Made by a program: the position numbers and the translations under genes. This document shows positions 24,872-27,895 of a DNA stretch of 64,000 nucleotides, one piece after another. This DNA is from Actinoplanes sp. NBC_00393 (GTDB taxonomy: Bacteria > Actinomycetota > Actinomycetes > Mycobacteriales > Micromonosporaceae), in the NCBI RefSeq assembly GCF_036053395.1, contig NZ_CP107942.1:9084001-9148000 (forward strand), in the 5' to 3' direction. Below the pieces are notes generated by a model. It had not been told where the DNA came from, made no database searches, and saw nothing but the letters and a program-made list of their open reading frames with translations. Position 1 is the first letter of the stretch. Each line of letters opens with the position of its first letter.

Positions 24872-25585
24872 GTGCCTGAGTACGACGACGAGACCGCGCA
24901 GTCTGCTGACGAGCAGTCGTCGCCGGACATCGACGAGTCGGTGGAGACGGTCGACGTTGCGGCCGTGGCCCAGGCGCCCGAGGCTGACGAGGACTACGAC
25001 CCCGTCAAGGAGCTGCGGCAGAAGCTGCGCTACGCGCCCGGCGACTGGTACGTGGTGCACTCCTACGCCGGTTACGAGAACAAGGTCAAGACCAACCTCG
25101 AGACCCGCATCACGAGCCTCGACATGGAGGACTTCATCTTCCAGGTCGAGGTTCCGACCCGCGAAGAGGTCGAGGTCAAGAACGGCAAGCGCAACCAGGT
25201 GCAGGCCAAGGTCTTCCCCGGTTACATCCTGGTCCGGATGGATCTGACCCCGGAGTCGTATTCGTGCGTGCGCAACACGCCCGGTGTGACCGGCTTCGTG
25301 GGCGCCACCGACCGGGTCGACCGGCCGGCTCCGCTCTCGCTCGACGAGGTGCTGAAGTGGCTGGCCCCGGCCGTCCAGGCCGAGGAGAAGAAGGCGAAGC
25401 CCGAGGTCAAGGTCCTCGACTTCGAGGTCGGCGACTCGGTCACGGTCACCGACGGCGCGTTCGCCTCGCTGCCGGCCTCGATCAGCGAGATCAACGCCGA
25501 CCAGCAGAAGCTCAAGGTCCTGGTTTCGATCTTCGGCCGGGAGACTCCGGTCGAGCTGAACTTCAACCAGGTCACCAAGATCTGA
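24872..25585 (+). CDS. nusG: Transcription termination/antitermination protein NusG
   Basis: A 237-residue NusG. An acidic N-terminal extension of about 55 residues precedes the NGN domain ([49 protein letters not shown]), and the C-terminal KOW domain reads [54 protein letters not shown]. It binds RNA polymerase and links it to Rho or the ribosome. The GTG at 24872 is in frame with the whole domain set. Normally rplK and rplA follow; here only rplA does. Confidence 0.97.
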
Positions 25586-25635
25586 TCGCCGGACAGCCGG
25601 CGATTCACGTGGGAGGGGCCGTATTCGGCGGCCCC
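25585..25635 (+). promoter_or_regulatory. Two hairpins in the nusG-rplA gap, where rplK is expected
   Basis: ATCGCCGG/CCGGCGAT (25585-25604, loop ACAG) starts on the last base of the nusG stop codon. A second stem GGGGCC/GGCCCC (25615-25635) lies just before the rplA ribosome site. The first looks like a terminator or attenuator; the second could relate to L1 autoregulation, which in other bacteria acts upstream of rplK-rplA. The whole gap is 77 bases. Confidence 0.5.
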
Positions 25636-25662
25636 GCCATCTACCACAGGAGTAATTGAGAA

Positions 25663-26382
25663 ATGGCACAGCGCAGCAAGGGCTACCGCAAGGCAGCCGA
25701 GCAGATCGACGCGTCGAAGCTCTACGAGCCCGCCGAGGCGGTCAAGCTCGCCAAGGAGACCAACCCGGTCAAGTTCGACGCCACCGTCGAGGTCGCGATG
25801 CGCCTCGGTGTCGACCCCCGTAAGGCCGACCAGATGGTCCGCGGCACCGTCAACCTGCCGCACGGCACCGGTAAGACCGCCCGCGTGATCGTGTTCGCCC
25901 AGGGTGCGAAGGCCGAGGAGGCCGTCGCGGCCGGCGCCGACGAGGTCGGCACCGACGAGCTCGTCGCCCGGATCCAGGGCGGCTGGCTGGACTTCGACGC
26001 CGCGATCGCGACGCCGGACCAGATGGCCAAGATCGGCCGGATCGCCCGGATCCTCGGCCCGCGTGGCCTCATGCCGAACCCGAAGACCGGCACGGTGACC
26101 ATGGACGTCACCAAGGCGATCAACGAGATCAAGGGCGGCAAGATCACCTTCCGGGTGGACAAGCACTCCAACCTGCACGTGATCATCGGCAAGGCGTCCT
26201 TCTCGGCCGACCAGCTGGTCGACAACTACGCCGCCGTGCTCGACGAGATCCTGCGGGCCAAGCCGTCCGCCGCCAAGGGTAAGTACCTGAAGAAGGTCAC
26301 CATCGCCACCACGATGGGCCCCGGCGTCCCGGTCGACCCGAACGTGCAGAAGAACCTCCGCGCCGAGGGTGCCGACGCCTGA
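25663..26382 (+). CDS. rplA: 50S ribosomal protein L1
   Basis: A 239-residue L1, full length. Typical segments are [57 protein letters not shown] (the signature around [10 protein letters not shown]) and GPGVPVD at the end. L1 builds the mobile stalk at the E site and often represses its own operon. AGGAG lies 10 bases before the ATG. The gene follows nusG directly, without the usual rplK between, and ends at a strong terminator. Confidence 0.98.
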
Positions 26383-26456: not shown

Positions 26457-27200
26457 GTGCGTTTCGATGGGATCTGGTTTCGGTACGCCCGACGCGCCGG
26501 CTGGACGCTGCGGGCGGTGGACGCGGCTGTCGAGCCCGGCCAGACGGTCGTGGTGCTCGGCCACAACGGCGCCGGCAAGTCCACGCTGCTGCAACTCGCC
26601 GCCGGCGTGCTGCGGCCGACCCGTGGCGCGGTCCGCGACCGTCCGGCGGTGGTCGGCTGGGTCCCGGAGCGTTTCCCGGCCGCGCAGCCGTTCACCGCGC
26701 TGGGATACCTGCGCGCGATGTCCGACCTCCGCGGTCTCCCGGCCGGGGCGGCCGACCACTGGATCGAGCGCCTCGGTCTGACCGAGCACACGCACACCCC
26801 GCTCGGTGACCTCTCCAAGGGCACGGCTCAGAAGGTCGGCCTGGCCCAAGCTCTGCTCACCCCACCCGGTCTGCTCGTGCTCGACGAGCCCTGGGAGGGC
26901 CTGGATGCCGCCTCCCGCCAGCTCGTCCCGCAGATCGTCGCCGAGGTCACGGCGGCCGGGGGAGCGGTTCTGGTCAGCGACCACCGCGGCGAGATCGCCG
27001 GCCTTCCGGGTGCGATCCACTGGACGGTCCGGGGCGGTGAGCTGCACGAGGATCCGGCCGAGCCGGACGCGGTGGACGAGGTGATCGTGGAGGTCGCCGT
27101 CCGGCGGCACGAGGCCGCCGAAGCGGTGGTCCGGCTGCGTGCCTCCGGTCACCGTGTCTTGGGTGTACGCGAGAACGCCGCTCCCGAGGAGACCCGATGA
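26457..27200 (+). CDS. ABC transporter ATP-binding protein
   Basis: A 247-residue ATPase. Walker A is G35-HNGAGKST43, the signature motif is degenerate as LSKGTAQKV, Walker B and the catalytic glutamate are LLVLDEP, and the H-loop is VSDHRGE. This looks like the ABC-2 exporter class. Its GTG is 17 bases after the rplA terminator, and its ATGA overlap with the permease shows the pair is one unit. The transported substrate is unknown. It interrupts the stretch between rplA and rplJ. Confidence 0.92.
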   Translation: MRFDGIWFRYARRAGWTLRAVDAAVEPGQTVVVLGHNGAGKSTLLQLAAGVLRPTRGAVRDRPAVVGWVPERFPAAQPFTALGYLRAMSDLRGLPAGAADHWIERLGLTEHTHTPLGDLSKGTAQKVGLAQALLTPPGLLVLDEPWEGLDAASRQLVPQIVAEVTAAGGAVLVSDHRGEIAGLPGAIHWTVRGGELHEDPAEPDAVDEVIVEVAVRRHEAAEAVVRLRASGHRVLGVRENAAPEETR

Positions 27201-27895
27201 CCGCCCTGATCCGGATGCGTCTCGCCGGCTTCGTGCGCAGCGGCCGCGCCCTGGCCCCGCTGATCGCCGCGCTGGTGCTCCTCTCCGTCCTCTACGGCGG
27301 CGGCGCCTCCCTGGCCGCCTCGGCCTACGGCTACTCGGCCGTGATGCTCTTCCCGGTCCTGGCCTGGCTCACCAAGCTGATCCTGGACGCCGAGCCGGAC
27401 ATCCAGCGCCAACTGGCCCGCCTCAGCGTCGGCCCGGTGCGCGAGTCCGCCGCCGGCCTGCTCGCCGCTCTGCTGCTCGGCGGCGTCGTGTGCGTCCTCG
27501 CGATGCTGGCGCCGGTGCCGTTCGGCGCCATCCGCGGACCGAACCCGGGCACCACGGAGGCCTCGCTGACAGCCGGCGTCCTGCTGGGTGTCCTTGCTCA
27601 CCTCTTCGCCCTGCTGGCCGCCGTGTCGCTGGGCGCGCTGGCGGGCCGGGCGATCACCCGTCGCGTGCTGCCGGGCGTGGCGGTCCTGGCGACCGGATCG
27701 GTGCTGGCGATCGTGCTCGGCCTGCGCGGTTCGATCGCGCCGTGGCTGGTCCCGCCCGTGATGGCCACCGCCCGGGAGCTGAGCGCGGAGGCAGCGCCGG
27801 CGGTCGGCACATTGGTCCTGCTCAGCGGCTGGACGATCGGCTGGTGCGCGGCTGCCCTGGCCGTCTACGCCGTGCTGCGCCGCGCGCGGGCGTGA
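27197..27895 (+). CDS. ABC-2-like transporter membrane subunit
   Basis: A 232-residue protein with about six hydrophobic segments (for example LAPLIAALVLLSVLYGG, AAGLLAALLLGGVVCVLAML, LLGVLAHLFALLAAVSLGAL, VLATGSVLAIVLGL, GTLVLLSGWTIGWCAAALAVYAVL). It overlaps the ATPase gene by four bases (ATGA) and should form its channel. No substrate-binding protein gene is nearby, which fits an exporter. Confidence 0.85.
   Translation: MTALIRMRLAGFVRSGRALAPLIAALVLLSVLYGGGASLAASAYGYSAVMLFPVLAWLTKLILDAEPDIQRQLARLSVGPVRESAAGLLAALLLGGVVCVLAMLAPVPFGAIRGPNPGTTEASLTAGVLLGVLAHLFALLAAVSLGALAGRAITRRVLPGVAVLATGSVLAIVLGLRGSIAPWLVPPVMATARELSAEAAPAVGTLVLLSGWTIGWCAAALAVYAVLRRARA

Follow-up and report, generated by a model that had tools for sequence, protein, structure and literature searches.

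Ribosomal protein L11 (uL11), encoded by rplK, is among the most conserved of the ribosomal proteins, and the gene order in which rplK is found is close to universal. The loop of eukaryotic cytosolic uL11 is without the prolines that are changed in thiostrepton-resistant L11 mutants, and, to our knowledge, those mutants carry single substitutions in the native gene and none is a separate protein that became fixed across a genus. According to the accessible sections of one source, thiostrepton sits between H43/H44 of 23S rRNA and the uL11 prolines, changed prolines reduce binding and give resistance, and the natural thiostrepton resistance of 80S ribosomes is attributed to the uL11 sequence (PMC5960728). 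A second L11 is described, in the available part of another source, in the form of TclQ, an alternative L11 that protects micrococcin producers against the thiopeptide (PMC9927498). The L11 of an S. hominis thiopeptide plasmid, which is taken here for TclQ, keeps PAPPVG, scores 187 bits on TIGR01632, and lies inside the cluster.

The locus examined here is in the window, which is the whole 64,000-nucleotide stretch of Actinoplanes sp. NBC_00393 that was analyzed (C1:9084001-9148000 of the closed genome). The nusG gene (24872..25585, + strand), whose product is 94.5% identical to A. sandaracinus NusG and 84.6% identical to that of M. rosaria, is followed by rplA (25663..26382, + strand), and the two are separated by a 77-base gap (25586..25662, + strand) at the place where rplK is expected. 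No L11 reading frame is present in or across this gap among the listed open reading frames, and the earlier note on this DNA was right that rplK is absent between the nusG stop at 25585 and the rplA start at 25663. The ribosomal protein genes further downstream are ordinary rplJ (L10; 28170..28715, + strand), which has 72 to 92% identity in 17 of 18 Micromonosporaceae loci and no match in L014, and rplL (L7/L12; 28761..29153, + strand), which is present and was identified from its own sequence alone. Between rplA and rplJ the window also contains an ABC transporter pair (26457-27895), and because 14 of the 18 Micromonosporaceae loci have the same pair, it is ordinary for the family.

An L11 gene stands immediately 5' of rplA in 71 of 80 named rplA loci (70 full-length and one cut by a contig end), with NusG matched in 69 of the 71, and the nine loci without it comprise seven Actinoplanes, Paractinoplanes, or Amorphoplanes records, Sciscionella marina, and Allokutzneria sp. 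Within the genus, L11 is missing between nusG and rplA in 30 of 30 loci read, which are a subset of the 67 found, and the gap measures 66 to 135 bases, an upper bound because it takes in the first rplA codons at loci whose rplA match started at codon 3, and part of nusG at loci whose nusG match stopped early (e.g., L248). The comparison with relatives that the earlier note had suggested thus yields a gap that is common to all 30 genus loci and the seven named relatives, and its recurrence in 30 of 30 loci excludes an assembly error and speaks for more than chance.

Most of the gap corresponds to what was once the rplK-rplA spacer, now abutting the nusG stop. A GTGGGAGGG-hairpin-CCGCCAnnnACCAC motif precedes rplA and is common to the rplK-rplA spacers of Micromonospora and Catenuloplanes, where rplK is present; it can also be read as GTGGGAGGG, a variable hairpin, and CCGCCAnnnACCACAGGAG 5' of rplA, and it is recognizable in all 30 genus loci read. 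The two hairpins reported earlier inside the gap are indeed there. The second (25609..25647, + strand) is a conserved rplA leader RNA with a GUGG/CCAC outer stem and an inner variable hairpin, and in the folding of 14 sequences (10 from the genus and four from other Micromonosporaceae) the outer stem was invariant and compensatory two-sided changes were found in three of 10 pairs. An Rfam search of the gap matched no known RNA family. This element is a conserved RNA and probably the site of rplA autoregulation by L1. The first hairpin (CGCCGG/CCGGCG; 25587..25602, + strand) occurs in only part of the genus, and a similar hairpin follows nusG in M. rosaria, so that it is possibly left over from the nusG-proximal hairpin of the old nusG-rplK spacer. 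The suggestion that the two original spacers survive in these hairpins is therefore plausible, with a clear match of hairpin 2 to the Micromonospora rplK-rplA spacer on one side and the absence of hairpin 1 from part of the genus on the other. Since the gap is mostly the old rplK-rplA spacer with the rplA leader, rplK appears to have been lost together with its own upstream leader, while the rplA leader stayed.

The whole-genome L11 search that the earlier note had called for, performed with PF00298, found exactly one L11 gene, which lies ~1.34 Mb away from the gap; the genome is closed and 11.43 Mb in size. This sole rplK (C1:10451850-10452272, with the PF00298 match at C1:10452060-10452266) encodes 141 amino acids. 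Of the two outcomes considered earlier, loss of L11 is contradicted by this gene, and relocation holds only in the sense that L11 is encoded elsewhere, because the protein belongs to a separate clade and is only 47.5% identical to L11 of M. rosaria, compared with 84.6% for NusG and 90.7% for RplA. Both uL11 Pfam domains are over their cut-offs (PF03946, 51.3 bits against 32.9; PF00298, 96.0 bits against 21.4), and relative to canonical L11 (51 versus 96 bits for PF03946 and 96 versus 103 bits for PF00298) the shortfall is mainly in the N-terminal domain, with the RNA-binding domain close to normal. On TIGR01632 the protein scores 133.9 bits, under the cut-off of 141.85, with M. rosaria L11 at 198.3, and three further members of its clade score 136.4, 125.7, and 142.0, the last, an accessory copy (L150), being just over the cut-off. 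With the Pfam domains matched and the TIGR01632 cut-off missed, the protein is a member of the uL11 family and not the canonical equivalog. Compared with 122 canonical L11 sequences it averages an identity of 0.40 over the N-terminal domain and 0.55 over the C-terminal one, and canonical pairs average 0.80 and 0.72, respectively (1055 pairs sampled).

A structure model of the Actinoplanes protein, built on an alignment that included canonical L11s, fits the L11 fold with a TM score of 0.93, and the fold and rRNA-binding domain are accordingly predicted to be retained. The gene is under purifying selection (median dN/dS 0.18, with 0.15 for rplA, the latter based on the 14 of 30 loci found by motif), and as the only L11 of the genome its product would be expected to be incorporated into the 50S subunit. 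In the genus, typA is beside L11 in 21 of 21 loci examined and terC in 20 of 21. A promoter-like region 5' of the distant rplK is conserved in 20 aligned loci, an alignment without L172, whose start-codon pattern did not fit, and an automatic promoter scan found nothing. Between the promoter-like hexamers and the rplK start there are ~70 conserved bases (L001 1205-1290), with GAGCTGC...GCAGCTC in many species, which might be a new regulatory leader; despite the sequence conservation, none of 15 predicted pairs of such a structured leader had two-sided changes. A ClpP-like protein adjoins rplK in 17 of 21 Actinoplanes loci and, judged by eye in our genome, seems to be without the catalytic serine and histidine, and a ClpP with intact-looking motifs stands beside the sole L11 of Allokutzneria in a different orientation (the ClpP-like frames beside L11 are L082 10310-11011 and L297 1608-2171).

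At the four columns of the canonical loop prolines, the Actinoplanes L11 has M, a deletion, D, and K, which in E. coli numbering we take to be P20 to M, deletion of P22, P23 to D, and P26 to K. Among 206 distinct aligned L11 sequences, 122 keep prolines at the first three positions with P or T at the fourth, 83 have M/V/I, a deletion, D/E, and K, and a single metagenome row is intermediate. The intermediate row is from a Pseudonocardiales metagenome bin (L045 2424-2849), in which L11 is at the canonical place, one loop residue is deleted, and one of the four prolines is kept; as the tree places it among canonical L11s, its loop change looks independent of the proline-less clade. The M-deletion-D-K loop was found in 67 of 67 genus genomes. 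The set of loops read is without L070, whose L11 is cut by a contig end. Twelve sites are fixed differently between the proline-less and canonical L11, most of them outside the four proline positions. In the case of the rRNA half of the drug site, a short-pattern search located an intact site whose 23S H43/H44 core matches M. rosaria at every position, the one difference lying further upstream of the core. The short 23S pattern was not found in A. sandaracinus, whose draft is perhaps without rRNA. The TSNR methylase domain PF04705 is absent from the Actinoplanes genome, and of 14 control genomes only Deinobacterium chartae matched.

The single L11 of each of the 67 genus genomes is 85 to 100% identical to that of our strain. 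A tree of 76 L11 proteins unites the proline-less forms in one clade (100/100, branch length 1.29), leaving out only the intermediate metagenome row, and separates them from the canonical L11 of actinomycetes, Bacillota, and Aeromonas, although branches within the clade are partly weak and long; another L11 tree is without P0128 and P0135. Among 300 genomes of the family, 18 of the 233 from other genera have two L11 matches, the better of which is proline-less (55 to 69% identity), and the four two-copy Micromonosporaceae that were checked all have, as their other copy, a canonical L11 located between nusG and rplA. In G087, a genome from another genus, the proline-less L11 is the only one, and the protein equals that of Spirilliplanes yamanashiensis. 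The outliers are G317 with two matches (loops unread), G121 with a weak match, and G084 and G151 with none (80 and 87% complete), and the remaining other-genus genomes have a single L11 match, at 49 to 53% identity among the matches listed.

The proline-less form extends beyond the family. Of 21 Pseudonocardiaceae isolates, a set from which the metagenome bins L021 and L051, named Pseudonocardia, were excluded, eight have both forms, two have the proline-less form only, and 11 have one match, the canonical copy before rplA; proline-less L11 is the sole L11 in Sciscionella and Allokutzneria, both draft genomes. Among 60 relatives, G039 from another family of the order has two L11, one of them proline-less, and in a class sample of 394 genomes, which includes our genome and two of its family, four have two L11 matches, and the two extra copies that were read are both proline-less. 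As the proline-less protein is the sole L11 in Actinoplanes and in Sciscionella and Allokutzneria, canonical rplK has been displaced in at least two families. Where the proline-less L11 stands alone, the proteins of the two families share a subclade (99/90) that also contains one accessory copy; with moderate internal support in the tree, this grouping hints at transfer of the proline-less L11 between families. No close relative of the Actinoplanes L11 was found on plasmids, where all 78 matched records were <60% identical. Plasmids of Clostridioides difficile of about 97 to 150 kb carry an annotated rplK (H26-H36).

Several accessory copies have recurrent neighbors. In Prauserella, Amycolatopsis (3), and Qaidamihabitans (L316-L320) the accessory L11 occupies a stable chromosomal position, flanked by a gamma-carbonic-anhydrase-like gene and, on its downstream side, by glyA and then ppa, these genes being named by eye. 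A small frame like a CGNR zinc finger is directly 3' of the accessory L11 in seven of 18 Micromonosporaceae (L144, L147, L150, L154, L156, L157, and L159), and by eye the same frame is found in three of eight Pseudonocardiaceae accessory loci (L316, L317, and L318). One of two zinc-finger-like members scanned matches PF11706 and the other matches nothing, and a search run without a positive control found no relative of this partner in the Actinoplanes genome.

With the four loop prolines gone, the surface on which the thiazole rings stack should be removed, which is why we lean, slightly beyond an even chance, toward an Actinoplanes ribosome that would be insensitive or less sensitive to thiostrepton-type thiopeptides, a prediction from the protein sequence. 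The thiopeptide resistance that the earlier note predicted thus becomes more plausible, on other grounds than the note gave. In the accessible text of PMC3897980, A. teichomyceticus received a vector said to confer resistance to thiostrepton on actinomycetes, and its use suggests that A. teichomyceticus, whose L11 sequence is outside this comparison, can be thiostrepton sensitive. In the screen of PMC9290621, as far as the part available goes, A. friuliensis is shown without an rplK hit. Apart from the PMC3897980 vector use, we found no thiopeptide phenotype for Actinoplanes in the literature, some of which was available in part. Six S. hominis thiopeptide-plasmid proteins had no relatives near L11 in 25 stretches, our own being 20 kb round rplK plus 7 kb before it, nor in the stretches of the eight Pseudonocardiaceae accessory L11; the sole positive control was the S. 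hominis plasmid itself, and distant clusters could be missed. As for stringent signaling, the genome has a RelA/SpoT domain in an 853-amino acid frame, and the domain recurs in two other frames. The presence of a Rel-type frame and two synthetase-domain frames indicates that the stringent machinery is not lost, and Rel coupling to the proline-less L11 may differ.

We consider it very probable that the genus as a whole has replaced canonical L11 by a distinct proline-less uL11 class and that this replacement recurred in a second family. In an ancestor shared by Actinoplanes and close genera, the canonical rplK of the nusG-rplK-rplA operon would have coexisted with a second L11 gene, for an accessory, proline-less uL11 that was acquired or kept elsewhere in the genome; the accessory protein would have taken over as the only L11, and canonical rplK and its leader would then have been deleted, leaving the rplA leader RNA in place. 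What we observe is the present state, and the order of these events is our reconstruction. Had the native rplK simply moved and then diverged fast in place, a single copy and the loss from the operon would look alike in one genome, but in the trees the Actinoplanes L11 is placed apart from the canonical L11 of Micromonosporaceae, among Pseudonocardiaceae proteins and the accessory copies from genomes in which canonical rplK is still present. Such divergence is thereby very improbable, and plain relocation was rejected. For an assembly deletion or a true absence of L11 speaks the empty gap; the chance of either is negligible, since an L11 gene lies elsewhere and the same gap is found in all 30 genus loci read and in the seven named relatives, and both loss of L11 and assembly error are thereby ruled out.

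What drove the replacement is less certain. Thiopeptides in soil would be a reasonable selective cause of the takeover, and we give this a little better than even odds. Going further, and tentatively, as a reading whose chance falls somewhat short of even, the proline-less uL11 may be a second functional class that moves among antibiotic-producing actinomycetes as an accessory gene and that has fully taken over the ribosome at least twice, leaving whole genera, with Actinoplanes as the first example, with a thiopeptide-blind GTPase-associated center and a naturally relC-like stalk base. A doubtful but substantial alternative is that the proline-less uL11 is a protein of alternative ribosomes selected for other reasons (EF-G, IF2, or Rel coupling, or stress), with thiopeptide insensitivity as a side effect or absent. 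The position of five of eight Pseudonocardiaceae accessory copies at the same unremarkable chromosomal site ahead of glyA and ppa (named by eye), the lack of thiopeptide-cluster relatives near the 33 stretches tested, the small zinc-finger-like frame directly downstream in 10 of 26 accessory loci, the 12 class-fixed sites that are mostly outside the four proline positions, and the thiostrepton-marker vector in A. teichomyceticus, as far as the accessible text of PMC3897980 goes, are all consistent with selection of this other kind; set against them, it is precisely the antibiotic-contact loop that bears the most radical shared change, and the rRNA half of the site is unaltered. It is the A. 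teichomyceticus vector and the lack of thiopeptide genes near the L11 copies that leave this alternative with about a third of the weight.

We found no published account of an L11 swap in a literature that was mostly outside subscription journals. A genus-wide swap to a variant without the drug-contact loop means that the stalk base is exchangeable in nature, and it provides a natural experiment on the role of the loop prolines in factor binding and stringent signaling. It also predicts antibiotic behavior for a genus with industrial uses (acarbose, teicoplanin), and gene markers based on L11, like genetic tools that rely on thiostrepton, may not perform in Actinoplanes as they do elsewhere. 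Accessory L11 copies may, in turn, mark actinomycetes that are exposed to thiopeptides.

In comparison with canonical uL11 (rplK, PF03946 and PF00298, TIGR01632), the Actinoplanes L11 is similar in its two domains, predicted fold, length, and GTARSMG C-terminal motif and in being the only L11 of its genome, but it is without the loop prolines, has a one-residue deletion, falls under the TIGR01632 cut-off, and is encoded outside the rplKA operon. Unlike the TclQ type, which is the nearest case known, it is without PAPPVG, under the TIGR01632 cut-off, and has no thiopeptide cluster nearby as judged by similarity to the six plasmid proteins, and whereas TclQ-type L11 is an extra protein beside canonical rplK, the Actinoplanes L11 is alone in all 67 genus genomes; the accessory proline-less copies of other genera resemble the TclQ type in that they also sit beside canonical rplK. 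With the thiostrepton-resistant L11 mutants it has in common that the same prolines are changed. Eukaryotic cytosolic uL11 is not close in sequence to the Actinoplanes L11, and any resemblance of their loops would be convergence.
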